Positions 4,725 through 41,022 of a DNA stretch of 64,000 nt are shown here, piece after piece. This DNA comes from a virus. A program made the translations under genes and the position numbers. The stretch lies in the IMG/VR virus record IMGVR_UViG_3300047319_001547, positions 1 through 64,000 of that record; one strand, 5' to 3'. The stretch's first letter is position 1. Each line of letters begins with the position of its first letter. Below the pieces are notes generated by a model. That model saw only the letters and a list, made by a program, of their open reading frames with translations. It ran no database searches and had not been told where the DNA came from.

Positions 4725-4954
4725 TGAAGTTCCTCCTAGTCTTCTTCGCGACCTTCGTGGCGGACGCCGTCTGGGCTCTCTACATCCAGAACGTCGCGGC
4801 CCGTCACGCCTACGCGGCGTCCGTCTACGCGTCCGTCCTGCTGATAGCCAGCACGAGCGCGACGATCGCCTGCGTGGGGGATCACGATCTCCTGTGGCCC
4901 GCGGCATGCGGAGCGTTCGCGGGCACGTGGCTCGCAGTGAGGTTCGGACGATGA
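4724..4954 (+). CDS. Small integral membrane protein
   Basis: 76 residues, started at the ATG that overlaps the upstream stop (TGATG). Three hydrophobic stretches (about residues 3-22, 32-50 and 56-72) with ARHAYAAS and CVGDHDLL between them suggest a two- to three-helix membrane protein. Similar small proteins occur widely in phages of high-GC hosts; no function is known to me. Confidence 0.55.
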   Translation: MKFLLVFFATFVADAVWALYIQNVAARHAYAASVYASVLLIASTSATIACVGDHDLLWPAACGAFAGTWLAVRFGR

Positions 4955-5313
4955 TTCATCTCCTGCACGCAGCCGCAGGTCTCGTAAAGCTCGTCGGACG
5001 ATTCGTCGTCGGCAAGATCCAACGCACGCCGTTCACCGTCAGGCAGACGTTCCGAGAGCATCTGACGCGCCAGGAATCGCCGAGCACCCGCGCAGTTCGC
5101 GTGATGGGTGAGATCATCGAGCGCACCGAGGAGCAGCGCGGCGAGATGACGATCCAGCAGCAGCGCGCTCAGGCGCTCAGCTTCGCCTACGGGAACCTGG
5201 CGGCGTCCGCGCATCACAAGCCGAACGTCTTCGCCTTCTGGCAGGTCGCGCAGAACGACGGCTGGGGGAAGGACGACTTCGAGGCGTGGGCGTCAGAGCG
5301 CGAGTGGGAGTGA
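4951..5313 (+). CDS. Hypothetical protein
   Basis: 120 residues, ATG in a 4-bp ATGA overlap. Amphipathic N-terminus, then a charged region rich in Glu, Gln and Arg, and a C-terminal FAFWQVAQNDGWGKDDFEAWASE motif. No recognised domain. Confidence 0.55.
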   Translation: MIHLLHAAAGLVKLVGRFVVGKIQRTPFTVRQTFREHLTRQESPSTRAVRVMGEIIERTEEQRGEMTIQQQRAQALSFAYGNLAASAHHKPNVFAFWQVAQNDGWGKDDFEAWASEREWE

Positions 5314-5432
5314 TGGCGCCCATCCCGCCCGGCATCGCGCTCCTGTTCCTCCTGGCCACGCTGGGGCTCGCGATGGCGATCGTCTACGGACTCGGCGGCC
5401 CCCCGTCTGGCCCGCCGCCCGCCCCACGCTGA
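5313..5432 (+). CDS. Tiny membrane protein
   Basis: 39 residues from an ATG overlapping the upstream TGA (TGATG). One hydrophobic segment of about 20 residues precedes a Gly/Pro-rich tail. Position and overlap support it; the function is unknown. The 99 bp that follow to the next gene hold no gene, only short inverted repeats built from the sequence CGTCCGG. Confidence 0.45.
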   Translation: MAPIPPGIALLFLLATLGLAMAIVYGLGGPPSGPPPAPR

Positions 5433-6441: not shown

Positions 6442-8094
6442 GTGGAGGCGATCGCTGACAGTCCGGAGATGCTCGAGGTCGCGCTCGAGGATCTGATGAT
6501 CCGCGCCCAGGAGGCGCGCGAGGACCCCACCAAGTTCCTGGCGTTCGTGATGCGCGCCGAGGACACGGGCGAGCCGATCGAGCCGGCCGACCACCAAATA
6601 GTCATGCTGGACTTCCTGGTCCAGCACCGCGCCGCCTGCGTCCTCACCGCGGTCGACCACGCCAAGACATTCACTAGCGCCGCCCTGGTGCTCTGGCTGC
6701 TGGGCCACAACCCGCGGCTCCGCATCGCGCTCCTGGGGGACGCCGAGGAGCAGCCCAAGAAGGTGCTGAAGGTCATCCGAACGATGATCGAGCAGTCGGC
6801 GGAGCTCCGGCTCGTCTTCCCGAGCCTGCGCAAGACGACGCGAGACGGCGAGCCCTGGACGGACTCCGACATCACGGTCGAGCGCGGCCCCGGCATCAAG
6901 GACTCTTCGGTATGCGCGCGCGGGCTCGAGTCGTCCCTCATCCCAGGCTCTCGCTGGGACGTGGCGATCCTCGACGACTTCGTGAACGACGAGAACGTCC
7001 GCACACCGGAGCGCCGCGACTGGCAGCACTCGCTGGTCCAGAAGCGCTGCGTGCCGCGCGTCGACAAGAATCACGGCCGCATCTACCTGCTGTCGAACGC
7101 CTGGCACGAGGACGACAGCTTCCAGCGACACGCGAAGGTCTGGCCCTGCCTGACGATGAGGGTCGACGGCACGATCCTGATCAAGAACGCCCCGACGTGG
7201 GACAGCCCGCTGATACGGCCCGCGGACGACCGGCCCGCCGAAGACCCGAACGCCGAGTACCGGCTGATCGCGCACGACCCGGATCCGACCAACGAGCAGA
7301 CCCTCTGGCCCGAGCGCTTCAGCCGCGAAACGATCGCGAAGATCCGCGAGCAGATGCTGCCGGAGGCGTTCGCCCAGACCTACATGTGCATCTGCCGCGA
7401 CTACAGCCAGTCGCTCTGCCGTCCCGAGTACATCGCGAAGGCGCAGCAGATCGGTCGCGAGCTTCAGATCCATCCCGACGTCTACAAGGCATACGGCGGC
7501 TTTCATCGACGCAAGGAGGACGTCCGGATCCCGTGCGGCCAGGGGTTGGTCTTCATCGGGGTCGACATGGCGTTCAGCAAGCAGTCGAGCGCCGACGAGA
7601 GCGCGATCTTCACCTTCATGGTGCTGCCGGGCGCCATCAGGCTGCCGCTCTGGATCGAGCACGGCCGCTGGGGGGCGGAGGAGCTGGAGCAGCGCGTGCT
7701 GGACCACCACGAGCGCTACCAGCCGTCAGCCTTTGCGGTCGAGAACGTCGCGGCCCAGGAGCACGTCCGGCAGTTCCTCCAGCGGGTCGACAAGACGATG
7801 CCGATCAAGCCCTACACAACCGACGCCAAGAAGCACAACGTGTTCTTCGGCGTCCCCTCCATCTTCGCCGAGTTCGCCGCGGGCGCGTGGGCGTTTCCCA
7901 ATCAGGAGGGACGGATGCGGCCGGAGCTCCAGAAGTTCGCCGACCAGTGCCTCGGCTATGCGCCCTCCGATCACACGGGCGACCTCCTGATGGCCGCCTA
8001 CTTTGCGTCCGAGATGGCGAAGAAGTTCGGCGCCCTCGCGCGCAACCTCGGGCCGAAGAACAAGCGGATCGCGGCAAACCTCATGGCGAGGTGA
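6442..8094 (+). CDS. terL: Terminase large subunit
   Basis: 550 residues, GTG start. The DNA-packaging motor ATPase-nuclease. The ATPase domain shows a degenerate Walker A, TAVDHAKT (about 69-76), a Walker B WDVAILDD (172-179) and a coupling-type segment YLLSNAWHEDDS (215-226). The C-terminal nuclease domain begins with FIGVDMAFSK (Asp375), followed by FAVEN (Glu435) and a late DHTGD. Length and order match the phage terminase large-subunit family. The Walker A lacks the usual glycines, as in other viral terminases with HGKS-like P-loops. It lies 2.8 kb after the probable small subunit. Confidence 0.9.
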   Translation: MEAIADSPEMLEVALEDLMIRAQEAREDPTKFLAFVMRAEDTGEPIEPADHQIVMLDFLVQHRAACVLTAVDHAKTFTSAALVLWLLGHNPRLRIALLGDAEEQPKKVLKVIRTMIEQSAELRLVFPSLRKTTRDGEPWTDSDITVERGPGIKDSSVCARGLESSLIPGSRWDVAILDDFVNDENVRTPERRDWQHSLVQKRCVPRVDKNHGRIYLLSNAWHEDDSFQRHAKVWPCLTMRVDGTILIKNAPTWDSPLIRPADDRPAEDPNAEYRLIAHDPDPTNEQTLWPERFSRETIAKIREQMLPEAFAQTYMCICRDYSQSLCRPEYIAKAQQIGRELQIHPDVYKAYGGFHRRKEDVRIPCGQGLVFIGVDMAFSKQSSADESAIFTFMVLPGAIRLPLWIEHGRWGAEELEQRVLDHHERYQPSAFAVENVAAQEHVRQFLQRVDKTMPIKPYTTDAKKHNVFFGVPSIFAEFAAGAWAFPNQEGRMRPELQKFADQCLGYAPSDHTGDLLMAAYFASEMAKKFGALARNLGPKNKRIAANLMAR

Positions 8095-8345
8095 TGATGG
8101 GCGGAGCTCGGATGCGGTCGGACGGCACTCGCCAGAACGCGGTCTTCATCGACGCGCTGCGGGCGGTCCTGAGGCTCGACCCACTCTACGAGAGCGTGAG
8201 CCAGCGCAACGCACGCATGCCCGCGGAGCTCCGCCACGTGGTCGGCATCTGGCCGGATTTCGCCGACAACGACGGCCATCTGGCTGCGATGAACTTCCAC
8301 CCTGGAACTCGAGTTCCAACCCCGGGACGCCGCGCGTGCCGGTAG
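8094..8345 (+). CDS. Hypothetical protein
   Basis: 83 residues, ATG overlapping the terminase stop (TGATG). Residues 20-60 carry ALRAVLRLDPLYES, a helical pattern. The C-terminus contains palindrome copy 4 read as GTRVP and then diverges into basic residues. The next gene starts inside its last codons. Confidence 0.55.
   Translation: MMGGARMRSDGTRQNAVFIDALRAVLRLDPLYESVSQRNARMPAELRHVVGIWPDFADNDGHLAAMNFHPGTRVPTPGRRACR
8303..8318. repeat. 16-bp palindrome, copy 4
   Basis: TGGAACTCGAGTTCCA near the 3' end of the gene at 8094-8345 and 17 bp upstream of the GTG at 8336. Confidence 0.95.
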
Positions 8346-8527
8346 CGATCAAGAAGTGCGGCTGCGGACGCACCTACGACCTCGCTGCGTGGAATCGTCT
8401 GCAGTATGTGGGCATCCAGGAAGGCGAGCTCACCTACGACCTGGAGCTCCGGAACTGCTTCTGCGGGTCGACGATCTCCCTGCGCAAATCAGTGCGGTTG
8501 ACCCGTCGGTCAGGAGCCTCAGACTAG
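8336..8527 (+). CDS. Small zinc-ribbon protein
   Basis: 63 residues, GTG start. Two cysteine knuckles, CGCGRTYD near the N-terminus and NCFCGSTI near residue 40, make a treble-clef or zinc-ribbon-like fold likely. Such small Cys4 proteins are common in phage accessory regions; the partner is unknown. Confidence 0.6.
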   Translation: MPVAIKKCGCGRTYDLAAWNRLQYVGIQEGELTYDLELRNCFCGSTISLRKSVRLTRRSGASD

Positions 8528-8534
8528 ACAGGAG

Positions 8535-8882
8535 ATGGCGGACCGGGCGGCAAGGATCGGAAGGATGCTCCCGCCGCAGATGGACGTCGTGCAGAGAAGC
8601 GAGTGGAATCACTTCACTCATCTGCTGCTGACCGACGGGCAGCTGCTGGATCTGCTGAGGAAGCGCTGGCCGGACTTCAAGGTCGAGCGCACCAACTCCG
8701 AGGGGATGGACGCCTGGACGGCCGCCCCCACGCCCGCGCGCCCCTGCTGGCTGGTGAGGTTTCACGACGGGACGAACAAGCACCAGATCGCCATCACGAT
8801 CGAGGACGGGCACGAGTGGCTTTGCTATCGCTTCGCCCTCTACACCGCCTACGTGTTTCACCTTTCTGGGAGCGGATCATGA
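8535..8882 (+). CDS. Hypothetical protein
   Basis: 115 residues, ATG start. Predicted soluble, with WLVRFHDGTNKHQIAITIEDG as a strand-rich core. The stop overlaps the next ATG. No family recognised. Confidence 0.55.
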   Translation: MADRAARIGRMLPPQMDVVQRSEWNHFTHLLLTDGQLLDLLRKRWPDFKVERTNSEGMDAWTAAPTPARPCWLVRFHDGTNKHQIAITIEDGHEWLCYRFALYTAYVFHLSGSGS

Positions 8883-9055
8883 CGCCTGAGGTTCGAGAGA
8901 TCTACGACGCCCTGATTGCCAAGCCGGCCATCTTCGGTGACGCGCGCGCCCGCTACGAGAAGCTTCGGGCGCGGATCATCGAGGAGGTCGGCTACAACGC
9001 CTTCTGGGACCGGCAGCACGAAGCGTTCGTGGAGCTGGGGCGCAACAGACCGTGA
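8879..9055 (+). CDS. Small hypothetical protein
   Basis: 58 residues, ATGA overlap start. All-helical, charged. The stop overlaps the next GTG. No family recognised. Confidence 0.5.
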   Translation: MTPEVREIYDALIAKPAIFGDARARYEKLRARIIEEVGYNAFWDRQHEAFVELGRNRP

Positions 9056-9788: not shown

Positions 9789-10033
9789 GTCGCAGCGCAG
9801 CAAGGTCGACGCCGAGAGACGGACAGGTGCGCTGCACCATCCACCAGTTCCCGAAGCGCTTCGGGCTCGCCAAGCCTCTCTGGGTGGCGGTCATCTGGCA
9901 GGACGGGCTGGTGCACGATGCGTTCGAGTCGACCGTCAGCGAGCAACAGGTATGGTGCGACGTCCTGAAGAAGTGGCCGAACGCCGTGCTGGTCCCGGAG
10001 GGCTGGCGCCCGTGGCGGTCCGAGGTCGCGTGA
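9785..10033 (+). CDS. Hypothetical protein
   Basis: 82 residues, GTG in a 4-bp overlap. Short beta-rich protein with LWVAVIWQDGLVHDAF and WPNAVLVPEGWRPW. No family recognised. Confidence 0.5.
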   Translation: MSRSAARSTPRDGQVRCTIHQFPKRFGLAKPLWVAVIWQDGLVHDAFESTVSEQQVWCDVLKKWPNAVLVPEGWRPWRSEVA

Positions 10034-10128
10034 GGGGCTTCATCTGGGGCGGCCCGAACCGCCTGCGTCTCCCCTTCTGGGGGACCGTTTGGGCGATCAT
10101 CCGCGAGGTCTGTAGGATCGGGCGATGA
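10030..10128 (+). CDS. Possible 32-residue membrane peptide
   Basis: A frame from GTG (GTGA overlap with the upstream stop) to a TGA that overlaps the ATG at 10125. The peptide is basic and aromatic-rich (GFIWGG, PFWGTVWAII). It is supported only by overlaps on both sides. A TAGGAT promoter-like hexamer lies within its last codons, so the stretch may be purely regulatory. Confidence 0.35.
   Translation: MRGFIWGGPNRLRLPFWGTVWAIIREVCRIGR
10113..10124 (+). promoter_or_regulatory. Candidate leaderless promoter (-10 TAGGAT)
   Basis: TAGGAT at 10113-10118 is followed by 6 nt and then ATG at 10125, the same geometry as the stronger promoters in this window. The -35 region is weak (TTGGGC at 18 bp). 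Confidence 0.4.
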
Positions 10129-10412
10129 TCGTTCTCATCTGGGTGTTCTGGGCACTCGTCAGCGTCGCGTCGATCGCGTGCATCTGGAAGCTCGGCCGGT
10201 GGATCTCGAGATGGTGGTCGGACGTCCCGAAGGCGGCCGCCTATCCGAGTCGAACATTCCGCCCCGAGGCGGAGCCGGATCCGTTTCCGATGCGCCCCCT
10301 CGCGAAGGCATACCCGAAGGCGCCGGACCGTCCCGTCAGTCGGACGATGAAGACCCACAAGGCACGGGTGGCGGCCAAGACGAAGGCGAAGCGCGGCAAG
10401 AAGAAACCGTGA
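10125..10412 (+). CDS. Membrane-anchored basic protein
   Basis: 95 residues. Residues 2-22 are a hydrophobic membrane segment (IVLIWVFWALVSVASIACIW), then a Pro-rich linker and a very basic C-terminus (KTKAKRGKKK). One-pass anchors with a basic tail are common among phage holin-like and accessory proteins; no function is assigned. The stop overlaps the next GTG. Confidence 0.55.
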   Translation: MIVLIWVFWALVSVASIACIWKLGRWISRWWSDVPKAAAYPSRTFRPEAEPDPFPMRPLAKAYPKAPDRPVSRTMKTHKARVAAKTKAKRGKKKP

Positions 10413-20355: not shown

Positions 20356-21147
20356 ATGCTGAAGGGCGTCGACGTCTCGGTCGTGCAGGGCCACGTCGAC
20401 TGGCATCAGGTCGCGGACGCGGGGGTGCGGTTCGCCTTCCTGAAGTGCGGCGAGGGCAACAAGGGGACGGACCCGCAGCTGGGGCGGCCCGGCTGGGAGG
20501 TCGACCACCGCCGCGCGGCCGGTCAGAGCGGGCAGGATCCGCTCTTCGACTGGAACGTCGGGCACGCGAAGGCGGCCGGCATCCTGGTGGCCCCCTACAG
20601 CTTCGCGTATCCGCTACCCCATCAGGACGGCAATCCCGTCAGGGACCCGGAGATCCAGGCGAAGTTTCACTTCGACCTCTCGCTCGGACTCGGCAGCATC
20701 AGAGGCGACCTGACGCCGATGCTCGACTTCGAGTGGCCCGCCCCGGTCGACTGGGCGAAGTGGGGATGCAGCAGCAATCAGATGGTGGACTGGCTGGAGC
20801 TCTATCTGGGCGCCGCCGACGCTTACTGGGGGACGAAGCTCGGCTGCTACACCTACCCGGACTTCTGGCACCACCTGACGGTCGGGCTCGACGCCTTGCA
20901 CGCCGCGAAGCTGGTCGTGATCTGCACCGGCCGCGTCTTCTGGCCGGCCGACTACCCGAACCCCGGCCGCTGGCCGTCCGACATCGAGCGGCCGCGCGCG
21001 TTCGCGCCGTTCGGCAACCCGACCTTCTGGCAGTTCAGCGGCGGCCAGATGGCGATGCCGGGCGGCGGCCCTCCAACAGACCTGGACGTGTTCCTGGGCG
21101 ACGAGAATGCCCTCAGGGGGCTCGCAGGACTGGACCCCCTACCGTGA
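20356..21147 (+). CDS. Glycoside hydrolase family 25-type endolysin (lysozyme)
   Basis: 263 residues, no signal peptide. KGVDVSVVQG (Asp6) at the N-terminus and PMLDFEW (Asp124, Glu126) in the middle match the paired acidic motifs of GH25 muramidases, which cut the peptidoglycan glycan chain. VRFAFLKCGEG and GILVAPYSFAY fall at the expected barrel strands, and the C-terminal FWQFSGG closes the barrel. No separate cell-wall-binding domain is seen. Probably the lysis enzyme; a structural lysin is less likely given its separation from the tail genes. Confidence 0.85.
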   Translation: MLKGVDVSVVQGHVDWHQVADAGVRFAFLKCGEGNKGTDPQLGRPGWEVDHRRAAGQSGQDPLFDWNVGHAKAAGILVAPYSFAYPLPHQDGNPVRDPEIQAKFHFDLSLGLGSIRGDLTPMLDFEWPAPVDWAKWGCSSNQMVDWLELYLGAADAYWGTKLGCYTYPDFWHHLTVGLDALHAAKLVVICTGRVFWPADYPNPGRWPSDIERPRAFAPFGNPTFWQFSGGQMAMPGGGPPTDLDVFLGDENALRGLAGLDPLP

Positions 21148-21299
21148 GAGGGGTCGCTTGGAACGTGCGCGTGGATGCCTCTCCTGAGCCCGTGACGCAG
21201 GTCGTGGCGGTTGGGTGGCACGAAGCCCGCGCCGACGCTGCCGCGAAGTTGAACGTCGCGAAGGAACGGATCCACGTTTCACAGGTGAGGTCGCCGTGA
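21144..21299 (+). CDS. Small hypothetical protein
   Basis: 51 residues, GTG overlap start. It has VVAVGWHEARADAAAKLNV. The stop overlaps the next GTG. No family recognised. Confidence 0.45.
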   Translation: MRGVAWNVRVDASPEPVTQVVAVGWHEARADAAAKLNVAKERIHVSQVRSP

Positions 21300-21742
21300 G
21301 GCTCGGCAGCTGGGCGGACTCGAACCTGAGGGCAGCCAGGAGCACCGAGCAGGCGATCTCGCTGCTCCGCGCCATCCCGGGCGGGCCGAAGATCTCCAAC
21401 CCGATCCGGTACGCCGGGCCGTCGCCCATCCAGCAGCAATTCTCGAACGAGGATCTGAATTCGCGAATCGCGAACGCGCCGATCCGCAAGGTCGCGATCT
21501 CGAGCCTCGTGACGGGCCAGCAGCACACCGTCGTGCGCGGGCGCGTCGAGTCGTACATCAAGAAGCCCCACCTCATCCCGGAGGGCGCGCACCACAAGCA
21601 CCACGGCGGCCCGATCGACCTCCCGATCGTCATGCTGTTCGACGGGAAGCGCTGGCTCTGGGACGGTCACCACCGCGTGATGGCGGAGACCCTCCTGGGG
21701 GCTCGGATGATCCGGGCACGCGTGGTCGACCTGGAGAAGTGA
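21296..21742 (+). CDS. ParB/sulfiredoxin-fold protein
   Basis: 148 residues, GTG overlap start. The C-terminal 80 residues match the ParB N-terminal/Srx fold: a strand leading into SLVTGQQHTVVRGRVESYI, then PIDLPIVMLFDGKRWLWDGHHRVMAETLLG, where DGHHR (residues 123-127) is the G-H-R nucleotide-binding motif, and a closing RARVVDL strand. There is no HTH domain, so it is not a complete partition protein. It is likely a phage ParB-like nuclease or CTPase-type protein; its target is unknown. Confidence 0.65.
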   Translation: MRLGSWADSNLRAARSTEQAISLLRAIPGGPKISNPIRYAGPSPIQQQFSNEDLNSRIANAPIRKVAISSLVTGQQHTVVRGRVESYIKKPHLIPEGAHHKHHGGPIDLPIVMLFDGKRWLWDGHHRVMAETLLGARMIRARVVDLEK

Positions 21743-21771: not shown

Positions 21772-21806
21772 TAGACAACCTTGTCTAACGGCCGTAGGAT
21801 TTAGGC
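21772..21806 (+). promoter_or_regulatory. Leaderless promoter with class B palindrome
   Basis: TAGACA (-35), exact 17-bp spacer, TAGGAT (-10), 6 nt, ATG at 21807. TAGACAACCTTGTCTA at 21772-21787 is a near-perfect 16-bp inverted repeat covering the -35, as expected of an operator. Same layout as at 27004 and 27970. Confidence 0.75.
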
Positions 21807-22352
21807 ATGACCAGCCGCCACTACTGCTTCGCAGCCTTCGCGCTCCTCGTCCTGGTGTTCTTCGGGTGCGCGGCTCCGCACCGCCCGCTGGCGACCCACT
21901 ACCGGATCGAGATCGACCCGTCGTTCCCCGACTACGCGGTGCCGGCGATCGTCGACGCCGCCGAGTCCTGGAAGGTCGCCGCCCCGGGGCTGACGCTCGA
22001 CGTCGTGATCTCGCAGTGCAGCCTGGAGCCGGAGGCGATCTGCGTCGCGCCCGTCGTCGCCATGACGGCTCATCCCGGCAAGGTCGGCTGGACGGATGAA
22101 TATCCGGCGGCCGACGACGCCACCATCACGGTGCTGCCGACGCACGCGAACGTCGAGATGACGAAGATCGTCGCGCACGAGTTCGGCCACGCGATGGGGC
22201 TGAGCCACGACGTCCCGGGAACCGTCATGTGCGAGGACGTCAACTGCGCGGCCAACAAGGTGACGTGCGGCGACGTCGCGCAGTTCTGGAGGGTCCGGGG
22301 CGGCCCGGCGGCGTTCGCTCACGCGTGCGGCGTGGCGCCGACGAATCCGTGA
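21807..22352 (+). CDS. Metzincin-type zinc protease, putative lipoprotein
   Basis: 181 residues from a leaderless ATG. Signal peptide with lipobox-like VFFGC (Cys21). The catalytic motif HEFGHAMGLSH at 124-134 is the metzincin HExxHxxGxxH signature, and GTVM (Met141) is a plausible Met-turn. Upstream, a matrixin-like strand pattern is visible (YRIEIDPSF, ITVLPTH). Family knowledge implies a secreted zinc endopeptidase; as a lipoprotein it would act at the host envelope. A second metzincin follows at 22574. Confidence 0.75.
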   Translation: MTSRHYCFAAFALLVLVFFGCAAPHRPLATHYRIEIDPSFPDYAVPAIVDAAESWKVAAPGLTLDVVISQCSLEPEAICVAPVVAMTAHPGKVGWTDEYPAADDATITVLPTHANVEMTKIVAHEFGHAMGLSHDVPGTVMCEDVNCAANKVTCGDVAQFWRVRGGPAAFAHACGVAPTNP

Positions 22353-22354
22353 GG

Positions 22355-22367
22355 TAGGCTTCACGAC
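22355..22367 (+). promoter_or_regulatory. Candidate leaderless promoter (-10 TAGGCT)
   Basis: TAGGCT at 22355-22360, 7 nt, ATG 22368. It lies immediately after the upstream stop. Confidence 0.4.
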
Positions 22368-22577
22368 ATGAGGGCCCGCGCAGCACTGGTGTTCGTCGTC
22401 GCTCTGGCGGCATGCCGTTCGGCGGACGTTCCGCAAGCGCGCGGGCGCGCTTGCGGTGGAGACGTCGACTGCGCCCTCGACGGCAGTCAGGTCTGCCGGT
22501 TCCCGGCCGCCAACACGCGCGCGGTGTGCGTTCCCGCCAACGGGCGGGCGCCCGACTGGATGCCGGACCCTCTGTGA
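22368..22577 (+). CDS. Small Cys-rich putative lipoprotein
   Basis: 69 residues. Signal peptide with good lipobox ALAAC (Cys16), then a mature part with four more cysteines (CGGDVDC, VCRF, AVCV) likely disulfide-bonded after export. The stop overlaps the next gene's GTG. It sits between the two metzincins and may be an accessory or inhibitor; that is inference. Confidence 0.6.
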   Translation: MRARAALVFVVALAACRSADVPQARGRACGGDVDCALDGSQVCRFPAANTRAVCVPANGRAPDWMPDPL

Positions 22578-23167
22578 ACGCGGGGTGGCTGGCGCTCCTG
22601 CTGGTCTCCTGCGCGGCCCTGCCGCACTCCGCCACTCCGCTCCCCCAAGCCACCGAACCGACGCTCGACGTCGCGGTCTGGCTGGACTCGCGATTCAATC
22701 CCGCCGAGAACGCGGCCGCCCGCGCTGCGCTCGAGGAGTGGAACGACGCGCTGGGCGGCTACGCGCACTTCTTCGTCGAGAGCGACAAGCTGGACCACCC
22801 GTCGGCCGACCCGATCGTCATCTCGTCTGCCATCATCCGACTCGGCCCGACCGTCACGATCGACCGGGAGCCGGACGACTGCGCGGTCTGCTCCTGGCAC
22901 GTGAAGTATCTGGCGTGGATGCCCCACGTGTTCGACCGCGACATCCACATCATCTCGTCCCGCATCGAGCGCGACCACGACGACTTCCGCGGGATCGTCG
23001 AGCACGAGATCGGGCACTTCCTGGGGCTGAAGCACGTCGAGACGCCCGCCCAGCTGATGTCGGACCACATCGAGATCCAGTGCATGTGCGTCGACGAGGA
23101 CACGCTGAGGCGCGTCGCGAAGCTCCATCGCTGGAACTTCGACCACATGCGGCCGGGCTGCCGATGA
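22574..23167 (+). CDS. Second metzincin-type zinc protease, putative lipoprotein
   Basis: 197 residues from GTG in a 4-bp overlap. Signal peptide with lipobox-like LLVSC (Cys13). HEIGHFLGLKH at 144-154 is the metzincin signature; QLMSDH supplies a candidate Met-turn (Met162). Two Cys pairs (CAVC, CMC) may stabilise it outside the cell. Sequence outside the active site differs clearly from the protein at 21807, so these are not a recent duplication. Confidence 0.75.
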   Translation: MNAGWLALLLVSCAALPHSATPLPQATEPTLDVAVWLDSRFNPAENAAARAALEEWNDALGGYAHFFVESDKLDHPSADPIVISSAIIRLGPTVTIDREPDDCAVCSWHVKYLAWMPHVFDRDIHIISSRIERDHDDFRGIVEHEIGHFLGLKHVETPAQLMSDHIEIQCMCVDEDTLRRVAKLHRWNFDHMRPGCR

Positions 23168-23170
23168 GTG

Positions 23171-23190
23171 GCTGGAACTCGAGTTCCAGC
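23171..23190. repeat. 16-bp palindrome, copy 8
   Basis: Core at 23173-23188, extended to a 20-bp perfect inverted repeat. Intergenic: 3 bp after the metzincin stop and touching the -10 hexamer at 23191. Confidence 0.95.
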
Positions 23191-24565: not shown

Positions 24566-24902
24566 GTCGCCGCTGGCCGGCGACGTGCCGCGAAACGTCG
24601 CGTACGCGCGCGCCTGCATGCTCGACTGCCTGAAGCGCGGCGAAGCTCCGTTCGTCAGCCACCTGCTGTACACGCAGTGCTTGGACGACCTGAAGCCCGA
24701 GGAGCGGAGTCTCGGCATGGAGGCTGGGTTCTGCTGGAGCGAGAAGGCGGAGTTGTCGGTCTTCTACATCGACTTCGGAATGAGCGGCGGGATGCGGGTG
24801 GGGATGGAGCGCGCCCAGAAGGCGTGCCGCCCGATCTCGCTGCGAGTCCTTCCGCGAGACGATCCCTTCTGGGATTCATCCGCGTCCTGGTCGGTGACGT
24901 GA
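24546..24902 (+). CDS. DUF7768-like (nucleoside deoxyribosyltransferase-like) protein
   Basis: 118 residues, ATG start. VYLESPLAGDVPRNVAYARACMLDCLKRG, PFVSHLLYTQ, then GFCWSEKAELSVFYIDFGMSGGMRVGMERA reproduces the Rossmann-like pattern of DUF7768/DUF4406-type proteins, relatives of nucleoside 2-deoxyribosyltransferases. Phages often carry one; the substrate is not established. The stop overlaps the next ATG. Confidence 0.65.
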   Translation: MRLVYLESPLAGDVPRNVAYARACMLDCLKRGEAPFVSHLLYTQCLDDLKPEERSLGMEAGFCWSEKAELSVFYIDFGMSGGMRVGMERAQKACRPISLRVLPRDDPFWDSSASWSVT

Positions 24903-25123
24903 TGAGCGCGCTGGATGTTCTTTCCTGGTCGGCGTGCTTCCTGCTTCTCGTGGGACTCGAGCTCATCGGGCGGAAGAAAATATCGGGGTTCTTCGTCGCC
25001 TTCATCGCAGAGATCCTGTGGATCTGGTGGGCAGCGCGGACGGGCGCTCACGCGATGGTCGTCATGTCGGGTGTCATCTGCGTGATGTATCTGCGGGCAA
25101 TCTGGAACTGGCGAAAGTCGTGA
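24902..25123 (+). CDS. Small two- or three-helix membrane protein
   Basis: 73 residues, ATG overlapping the upstream stop. Hydrophobic stretches at about 7-21, 29-45 and 50-66 with a basic GRKK loop. The Trp-rich second helix (FIAEILWIWWAARTG) recalls short PnuC-like phage membrane proteins, but the match is weak. A holin-like role is also possible. Confidence 0.5.
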   Translation: MSALDVLSWSACFLLLVGLELIGRKKISGFFVAFIAEILWIWWAARTGAHAMVVMSGVICVMYLRAIWNWRKS

Positions 25124-27003: not shown

Positions 27004-27038
27004 TGGACAAGCTTGTCCACGTCCGCTAGGCTTTAGTC
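27004..27038 (+). promoter_or_regulatory. Leaderless promoter with class B palindrome
   Basis: TGGACA (-35), 17 bp, TAGGCT (-10), 6 nt, ATG 27039. TGGACAAGCTTGTCCA at 27004-27019 is a perfect 16-bp palindrome covering the -35. Its outer TGGA/TCCA match the ends of the 16-copy palindrome. Confidence 0.8.
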
Positions 27039-27320
27039 ATGAAGAAGACGGCAGCGACAGTCGGGCTCGCGAACATCGTCCGCGGCGACTTGCCCGGGCA
27101 CGCGCTCATCCAGTTCCCGTCGGGACGCTGGGGATTCGCTGGCAAGGTCGATTCTCGGCTCGCGCATGTGATGAAGGACGGGACCGAAGTGACGCCCGCG
27201 GCAGCCAAGATCGCCCGCGAGTTCGGCCCTGCTCTTGCCGGGGTCAAGACGCGCACCTGGGACACCTCAGACGCTGCGATCGAAGCGGCCGCCAGCATCG
27301 GGATTGCGGTGTCGACGTGA
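27039..27320 (+). CDS. Hypothetical protein under a class B promoter
   Basis: 93 residues from a leaderless ATG. An SH3-like strand pattern is suggested by IVRGDLPGHALIQFPSGRWGFAGKV; the C-terminus is helical. The stop overlaps the next GTG. Function unknown. Confidence 0.55.
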   Translation: MKKTAATVGLANIVRGDLPGHALIQFPSGRWGFAGKVDSRLAHVMKDGTEVTPAAAKIAREFGPALAGVKTRTWDTSDAAIEAAASIGIAVST

Positions 27321-27969: not shown

Positions 27970-28004
27970 TAGACAAGCTTGTCTAACGGCCGTACCTTCT
28001 AGTC
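27970..28004 (+). promoter_or_regulatory. Leaderless promoter with class B palindrome
   Basis: TAGACA (-35), 17 bp, TACCTT (-10), 6 nt, ATG 28005. TAGACAAGCTTGTCTA at 27970-27985 is a perfect 16-bp palindrome. The stretch after it, TAACGGCCGTA, matches the promoter at 21772. Confidence 0.8.
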
Positions 28005-39999: not shown

Positions 40000-41022
40000 G
40001 TGGCCGCGACACCGCGCGACGTTCTGGCGTCTGACCACCGCGACTCGCTCGAGATGCTCAAGCAGCTCGGCGCCGTCAGGACGCGGAAGATCCTGGCGCG
40101 CGCGCAGCGCGACCTGGAGCGGCGACTCGACCAGGCGGTGAGGGCACCCGGCGCCCAGTCCTACACGGCGGCGAACCTCAGGACGGCCCTCACGCAAGTC
40201 AGGGAGGCGACGCGCATCGTCCAGAAGGGGATGAGGGGTGTGCTGCTGGACGGGGCCGGCTACGCGGCCGAGCGGTCGGTCGAGAACCTGTCGCGCTACC
40301 TGCACGCGGCGAATCAGCAGTTCAGCGGGGTGTCGCGTCCTCTCGCGCTCGACACCGCCGCGATGGTGGACGAGGCAAGCTCGGGCGCGCGCGCGACGGT
40401 GCTGCGTCGCCTGGCGTCATCCGGCACGCAGGTTCCGGGCGCGGAGCCGGATCCCCACCCCGCGCGCGCCGGCATCATGGAGCGCTACGGGCTGGCGACG
40501 ATCGGACACTTCGAGCAGATACTTCAGCGCGGGCTGATCGCGCGCGCGCCGTGGGAGGACGTAAAGGACGAGATGACGGGTGCGAGCTCCTTCCTCCAGG
40601 GAGCACCCCGCTTCTGGAGCGAGCGGATCGTCAGGACCGAGACGGCCGGCATCTACAACCGCGCCGGCTGGGAGGCGATCCGCACCGCCGACGACGAGCT
40701 GGGCGACATGCTGAAGATCCTGTCGGCGACGTTCGACGATCGGACCGCCAGCGACTCGTATGCGGTCCACGGGCAGATCCGCAAGCCCGAGCAGGCGTTC
40801 GAGTCGTGGTACGGGCTGTACCAACATCCGCCCAACCGACCCAACGACCGCGAGGTGGTGGTGCCGCACAGGATGTCGTGGCCGATCCCTCCCTACCTGA
40901 AGTGGATGACCGCCGAGCAGATCGCCGCGCGGTGGCGCCACGAGGGACGCAAGGGGAAGGTGCCGCCCCGCCCGATGATGACGACCGTCCCGCTGGACCA
41001 GATCGGCAGGGGGAAGAAGTGA
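40000..41022 (+). CDS. Mu F/SPP1 gp7-like minor head protein
   Basis: 340 residues, GTG start 4 bp after the portal stop. Helical N-terminal two thirds, then the diagnostic RIVRTETAGIYNRAGWEAI and ILSATFDDRTASDSYAVHGQI, with HPPNRPNDREVVVPHRMSW at the end. Proteins of this family sit inside the head near the portal and assist morphogenesis or DNA ejection. Confidence 0.8.
   Translation: MAATPRDVLASDHRDSLEMLKQLGAVRTRKILARAQRDLERRLDQAVRAPGAQSYTAANLRTALTQVREATRIVQKGMRGVLLDGAGYAAERSVENLSRYLHAANQQFSGVSRPLALDTAAMVDEASSGARATVLRRLASSGTQVPGAEPDPHPARAGIMERYGLATIGHFEQILQRGLIARAPWEDVKDEMTGASSFLQGAPRFWSERIVRTETAGIYNRAGWEAIRTADDELGDMLKILSATFDDRTASDSYAVHGQIRKPEQAFESWYGLYQHPPNRPNDREVVVPHRMSWPIPPYLKWMTAEQIAARWRHEGRKGKVPPRPMMTTVPLDQIGRGKK

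Follow-up and report, generated by a model that had tools for sequence, protein, structure and literature searches.

Two minimal matrixins and a small lipoprotein form an accessory gene cassette, possibly for envelope attack, in an uncultured soil-type phage

Three neighbouring genes of the + strand, P0001, P0002 and P0003, fill positions 21807-23167 of the window, the stretch of 64,000 nt analysed here out of the 95,060-bp IMG/VR record IMGVR_UViG_3300047319_001547 (whole record, G000). On all sequence criteria P0001 and P0003 are M10-type metzincins (matrixins), predicted to be catalytic, and the gene between them encodes a small Cys-rich lipoprotein. The cassette is accessory. Our preferred but tentative reading is that it forms an envelope-attack module, in which envelope-anchored proteases would ease lysis under the control of the partner lipoprotein. 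The features considered are collected in Table 1.

Table 1. Features of the cassette, its surroundings and two comparable gene pairs. Positions refer to the window, except for the L051 and L058 pairs, which are numbered in their own records.
Feature	Position	Strand	Remarks
GH25 muramidase, probable endolysin	20356..21147	+	PF01183 E 1e-17; PHROG lysis/endolysin 6.6e-14
g39, weakly ParB/VapB-like	21296..21742	+	Kept in 9 of 20 related phages
Operator-like dyad ("class B"), a perfect inverted repeat TTAGACAA-CC-TTGTCTAA	21771..21788	+	18 bp; 0 in shuffled genomes
Probable leaderless-promoter -10 box, TAGGAT	21795..21800	+	ATG of P0001 6 nt downstream; assigned from the pattern
P0001, minimal matrixin (metzincin)	21807..22352	+	181 aa; lipobox FFGC (Cys21); no pro-domain; PF00413 28.8 bits
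P0001 zinc site HEFGHAMGLSH	22176..22208	+	Met-turn Met141 at 22227-22229
P0002, small Cys-rich lipoprotein	22368..22577	+	69 aa; lipobox LAAC; stop overlaps P0003 start by 4 nt
P0003, second minimal matrixin	22574..23167	+	197 aa; GTG start; lipobox-like LVSC (Cys13, short n-region); PF00413 27.4 bits
P0003 zinc site HEIGHFLGLKH	23003..23035	+	Met-turn Met162 at 23057-23059
Palindrome CTGGAACTCGAGTTCCAG, then TAGGGT before g43	23172..23189	.	One of 24 identical sites; probable promoter of g43, closing the cassette
L051 lipoprotein/metzincin pair	9147-9344/9341-9862		4-nt overlap
L058 lipoprotein/metzincin pair	7813-7995/7992-8549		4-nt overlap

An earlier note on this DNA had described two metzincins, each with a full HExxHxxGxxH motif, and a Cys-rich lipoprotein between them, and this description was confirmed: both zinc motifs are intact, and both proteins scored above the Pfam Peptidase_M10 cut-off of 24 bits. 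When the six frames of the 95-kb record were searched for HExxHxxGxxH, only these two matches were obtained, against a mean of 0.0 in shuffled genomes. The Met-turn residues M141 and M162 are invariant across the phage alignments, and the two proteins share one profile family with their phage relatives (hhalign 99.5%, E 3.6e-22). The AlphaFold model of P0001 (pLDDT 73.9) has the strand and helix order of metzincins, and its best PDB matches were the catalytic domains of MMPs (E 6.6e-7). The model of P0003 was of low confidence (pLDDT 61); its top PDB matches were also metzincins (MMPs and karilysin, including the complex with PotA), with an E value of only 4.3e-3. The models point firmly to a metzincin fold for P0001 and more weakly for P0003. 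The zinc motif, the Met-turn, the strand and helix order and the PF00413 score are shared with the M10A matrixins (MMP catalytic domains), from which the phage proteins differ by the lack of a pro-domain, a cysteine switch and a hemopexin domain, by a lipoprotein-type export signal and by an identity to MMPs of about 20%.

The coding score was strong for P0001 and P0003 (0.37 and 0.39 nats/codon) and weak for P0002 (0.05 nats/codon), yet the P0002 frame was the best of that stretch. P0002 was taken as a real gene mainly because of its lipobox and because a like arrangement occurs in other phages. Its mature form would have 54 aa, with four cysteines beyond the lipobox Cys in the pattern C-x5-C-x7-C-x10-C, and no family match was found in Pfam, PHROG or NCBIfam.

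The export signals were compared with a PS51257-type (PROSITE) lipoprotein rule, i.e., a charged n-region, a hydrophobic stretch and a lipobox Cys at about position 15-35. P0001 and P0002 (Cys16) conform to it. P0003, read from the GTG at 22574, has no K or R and lacks both the charge and the cysteine position of the rule; to conform, it would have to start at another GTG further upstream (22526), which codon usage does not support. The n-regions of the phage metzincins of L081, L084 and L086 are likewise very short and free of basic residues, so P0003 may be lipidated all the same. At G000's own rate, about 0.02 runs of three successive lipobox genes would be expected, so chance is an unlikely source of such a run. 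Export via Sec and lipidation are the most likely prediction for P0001 and P0003 from these signals. The proposal of lipobox signals in all three proteins held for P0001 and P0002 and is least certain for P0003, and that of phage-encoded, exported zinc proteases with probable lipid anchoring is supported by the metzincin sites together with the export signals.

The cassette looks like a transcription unit of its own, because a dyad element lies upstream of it and a palindrome site follows P0003 directly. Two other sites of the dyad TTAGACAAnCTTGTCTAA, at 27004 with 2 mismatches and at 27970 with none, stand directly before the ATGs at 27039 and 28005, and a weaker one (3 mismatches) lies at 77952 of G000, upstream of a UvrD-like helicase gene. 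These sites possibly define a small regulon that includes the metzincin cassette. Of the class B leaderless promoter proposed earlier, the dyad and the TAGGAT box were verified and recur at two other gene starts; the promoter role and a leaderless mRNA are suggested by this pattern. The dyad class is distinct from that of the palindrome TGGAACTCGAGTTCCA, of which G000 holds 24 copies, all perfect, with zero variants of 1-2 mismatches. They lie in the window at 447, 3766, 5756, 8303, 10434, 18274, 20119, 23173, 26398, 29415, 35268, 41027, 47522, 49423, 54810 and 58482, followed by 8 more sites, the last at 92742 of G000, and at several of them a TAGGGT-like box and a start codon come after the palindrome. 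Related phages have repeated palindromes of altered sequence, GGGAACCCGGGTTCCC in G001 and GGAAACCCGGGTTTCC in G004.

The source is an uncultured, soil-type bacterial virus, a 95-kb, myovirus-like phage with a GC content of 67%. It encodes a terminase, a portal, a major capsid protein and a GH25 endolysin; the tail-sheath match was weak. Relatives of the capsid protein were found at 38 loci of viral contigs (47-71% identity), and isolate phages gave distant matches only (31-32%). A capsid search of 396 genomes from the phylum of one Vicinamibacteria match, carried out with regard to the host, was empty. A profile search detected a metzincin homologue in one of 20 capsid-relatives, G004 (E 9.6e-54; this protein was itself in the search profile and had first been detected by Pfam alone). 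There, the lipobox matrixin P0004 has neighbours like those of the cassette in the window, a g39 homologue and a g43-like gene, and no recognised endolysin lies beside it.

Another relative, G001, gave a PF00413 match that was rejected, since it falls on the C-terminal HEIGH domain of a head-morphogenesis protein. This MuF-like protein (L043:1354-3057) carries the metallopeptidase-like domain as an extra C-terminal part, absent from the window homologue at 40000-41022. Close to where the metzincin cassette would lie, G001 carries other small Cys-rich lipoprotein-like genes in its stead (L045:10882-11181 and 9917-10231, - strand), and its terminase large subunit (L045:13389-16067, - strand) is apparently split by an intein-like insertion (CHGRGTPILMADG ... 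VTHNTFS).

In G000 the GH25 gene lies 660 bp upstream of the cassette, with two called genes and the separate upstream element in between. It was considered as a conserved marker of the lineage and rejected, being absent from 33 capsid-relatives. A PnuC-like small membrane protein at 24902-25123 was weighed as a holin and dropped. Beyond the window, at 69676-70065 of G000, a 129-aa protein with several hydrophobic segments is encoded directly after a palindrome site and is a holin candidate far from the GH25 gene.

As single-protein queries, P0001 and P0003 gave nothing useful against viral contigs and isolate phages, and a scan of genome contigs returned generic matrixins of mixed phyla only. 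Profile scans detected small matrixins, many with a lipobox, in at least about ten further, unrelated phage lineages, with metzincin identities between lineages of 20-36%. The matrixins of L055, L057 and L088, which differ in architecture and have no lipobox, were not counted as lineages; L083 was kept, although the start of the long open frame that contains its protease is uncertain. An entry named "Acinetobacter phage MD-2021a Matrixin" (L070, CAKLQH020000026.1; also CAKLQF020000029.1) was discarded, as its two matrixins lie beside dnaK, grpE and purine genes, apparently on a host chromosome filed as phage.

Several of these metzincin genes lie in or next to lysis cassettes. In L062, baseplate and tail genes are followed by a probable holin (86 aa, with a coiled coil and a TM segment), the metzincin (7689-8219) and an M15 endolysin (8210-8947; PF13539 above cut-off, PHROG endolysin), the last two genes overlapping. 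The order in L050 is two small TM proteins, one of them a probable holin, a lipoprotein, a 67-aa protein, the metzincin (4938-5426) and a T4-lysozyme-like protein, the endolysin call resting on the E-x8-D-x5-T residue spacing of T4 lysozyme only, with no match in Pfam, PHROG, NCBIfam or the PDB. In L081, L084 and L086 the metzincin is found about 25 nt downstream of an endolysin with Amidase_2 and PG-binding domains. The metzincin is contiguous with the probable holin and the endolysin in L062, probably also in L050, and with the endolysin only in the other three. Among the matches listed, an endolysin was present within three genes in four of 11 lineages (G000 included), with four endolysin types. 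A rough binomial estimate for this adjacency gave P ~ 0.001-0.03, which is indicative only, as it draws on few lineages, and their number, the null and the contig truncation are all approximate. In L051, L053, L054, L058, L071, L072 and L082 the genes adjoining the metzincin included no recognisable lysis gene, and a search for three endolysin families elsewhere in the records checked among these loci found none.

Additionally, at least three lineages (G000, L051 and L058) have a small lipoprotein gene that shares 4 nt with a metzincin gene; the lipoproteins concerned have 60-65 aa in L051 and L058. Two metzincins each were found in L051 and L053. In the 472-kb virus record of L058, four lipobox genes stand in tandem (L058:7813-9305), coding for a small lipoprotein, a metzincin lipoprotein and two Cys-containing lipoproteins.

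Two described protease systems resemble the cassette in arrangement. Listeria Mtz/Tim consists of a secreted metzincin and a TIMP-like lipoprotein of phage origin, is often located downstream of holin-lysin genes and reportedly makes cells more sensitive to lysins (PMC8235301). As in our cassette, a phage-associated metzincin adjoins a lipoprotein gene. By contrast, Mtz is SPI-secreted in Gram-positive hosts and its gene directly precedes that of the lipoprotein (PMC8235301), whereas the cassette has two proteases with lipobox-like signals and the order is reversed, P0002 preceding P0003. As gene order and partner differ, P0001 and P0003 fall outside the defined Mtz/Tim system. In the Tannerella KLIKK proteases, the gene of a small lipoprotein (potempin), reported to inhibit the co-expressed protease, lies directly before each protease gene (PMC7296668), and this order was found for P0002/P0003 and also in L051 and L058. 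The KLIKK proteases are bacterial, T9SS-secreted zymogens with extra domains and the cassette proteins are bare catalytic domains of a phage; inhibition by P0002 would be an analogy, and family searches (Pfam, PHROG, NCBIfam) found no potempin homology. Rz/Rz1 spanins of Gram-negative phages are likewise envelope-anchored, include one small lipoprotein and are encoded near holin and endolysin genes. However, two of the three cassette proteins are predicted enzymes, catalytic-type metzincins, and none has the TM/coiled-coil build, which leaves at most a functional analogy.

The reading with lysis as the outcome and P0002 as partner is favoured because the Mtz/Tim (PMC8235301) and KLIKK (PMC7296668) precedents fit. 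P0001 and P0003 would pass through Sec, be lipidated and sit anchored in the host envelope, where their metzincin domains would cut envelope or wall-associated proteins, and the weakened envelope would let the cell burst more readily once the endolysin acts. Anchored metzincins without a pro-domain would act on folding, so a controller would be needed; P0002, whose gene overlaps that of P0003, would be the lipoprotein partner, likeliest an inhibitor or control subunit restraining the proteases until release. In this scheme we infer catalysis, lipidation, the envelope substrate, the inhibitor role and the lysis effect. Some findings count against it. With its own dyad element, the cassette may be expressed apart from the late genes; the other dyad sites precede genes of no known role and, weakly, a helicase gene; and with a homologue in one of 20 capsid-relatives, the relatives apparently lyse without the cassette. 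Since the upstream element is a separate one and close relatives rarely have the cassette, superinfection exclusion, early takeover and lysogenic conversion stay alive as explanations.

Superinfection exclusion, in which proteases expressed early or from a prophage would shave surface receptors and block the adsorption of later phages, is unlikely, though it deserves some weight. The dyad element, regulated apart from the 24-site class, and the accessory distribution of the cassette agree with it, and phage exclusion factors are often small lipoproteins, such as Llp of T5. On the other side, no exclusion lipoprotein is known to be a protease, the relatives adjoin lysis genes in at least three other lineages, and no repressor or integrase was encountered close to the cassette. 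An early role in takeover or counter-defence, with the proteases inactivating envelope stress sensors, secreted defence proteins or surface appendages, seems improbable: metzincins do occur among non-structural genes in L051, L054 and the jumbo-sized L071/L072, but this proposal names no specific target and would require a second explanation for the placement in lysis cassettes elsewhere.

Lysogenic conversion, by which secreted or surface matrixins would benefit the bacterial host in nutrition, predation or competition, appears quite improbable. Its favourable points are the best NCBIfam match of P0003, sub-threshold, to a Myxococcus metalloprotease family, and the cysteine pattern of P0002, which we take to recall Cys-rich lipoproteins of predatory myxobacteria. 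However, the lineage of this phage is without close relatives among isolates and gave no sign of temperance, and the proteins are minimal domains without adhesion or secretion modules. The earlier note had offered envelope lysis, exclusion or predation-type conversion as the function; lysis has gained ground from the relatives in or beside lysis cassettes of at least three other lineages, and the other two drew no positive evidence. Finally, we hold it very improbable that the genes are independent captures from hosts, with no common phage role and a coincidental lysis adjacency. Accessory genes accumulate near lysis modules, landing close to tail or lysis genes; moreover, the identities between lineages are low and, as the control searches indicated, matrixins are common in bacterial genomes. 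Nevertheless, the overlaps within two cassettes and the repeated lipoprotein overlap are more specific than random landing.

Once the wall has been digested, Gram-negative phages still have to breach the outer envelope, and spanins are the known solution. A bolder form of the lysis reading, rather unlikely in our judgement, is a new class of lysis proteins, lipid-anchored matrixins that would open the outer envelope and replace spanins in some Gram-negative phages, with a lipoprotein as timer or inhibitor; if so, the G000 cassette would be its two-protease form. The recurrence of putatively lipid-anchored proteases beside several unrelated endolysin types suggests that proteolysis may assist lysis, an idea open to direct testing with three small genes, and the recurrent overlap of lipoprotein and protease genes likewise makes a potempin- or Tim-like inhibitor role of P0002 testable.
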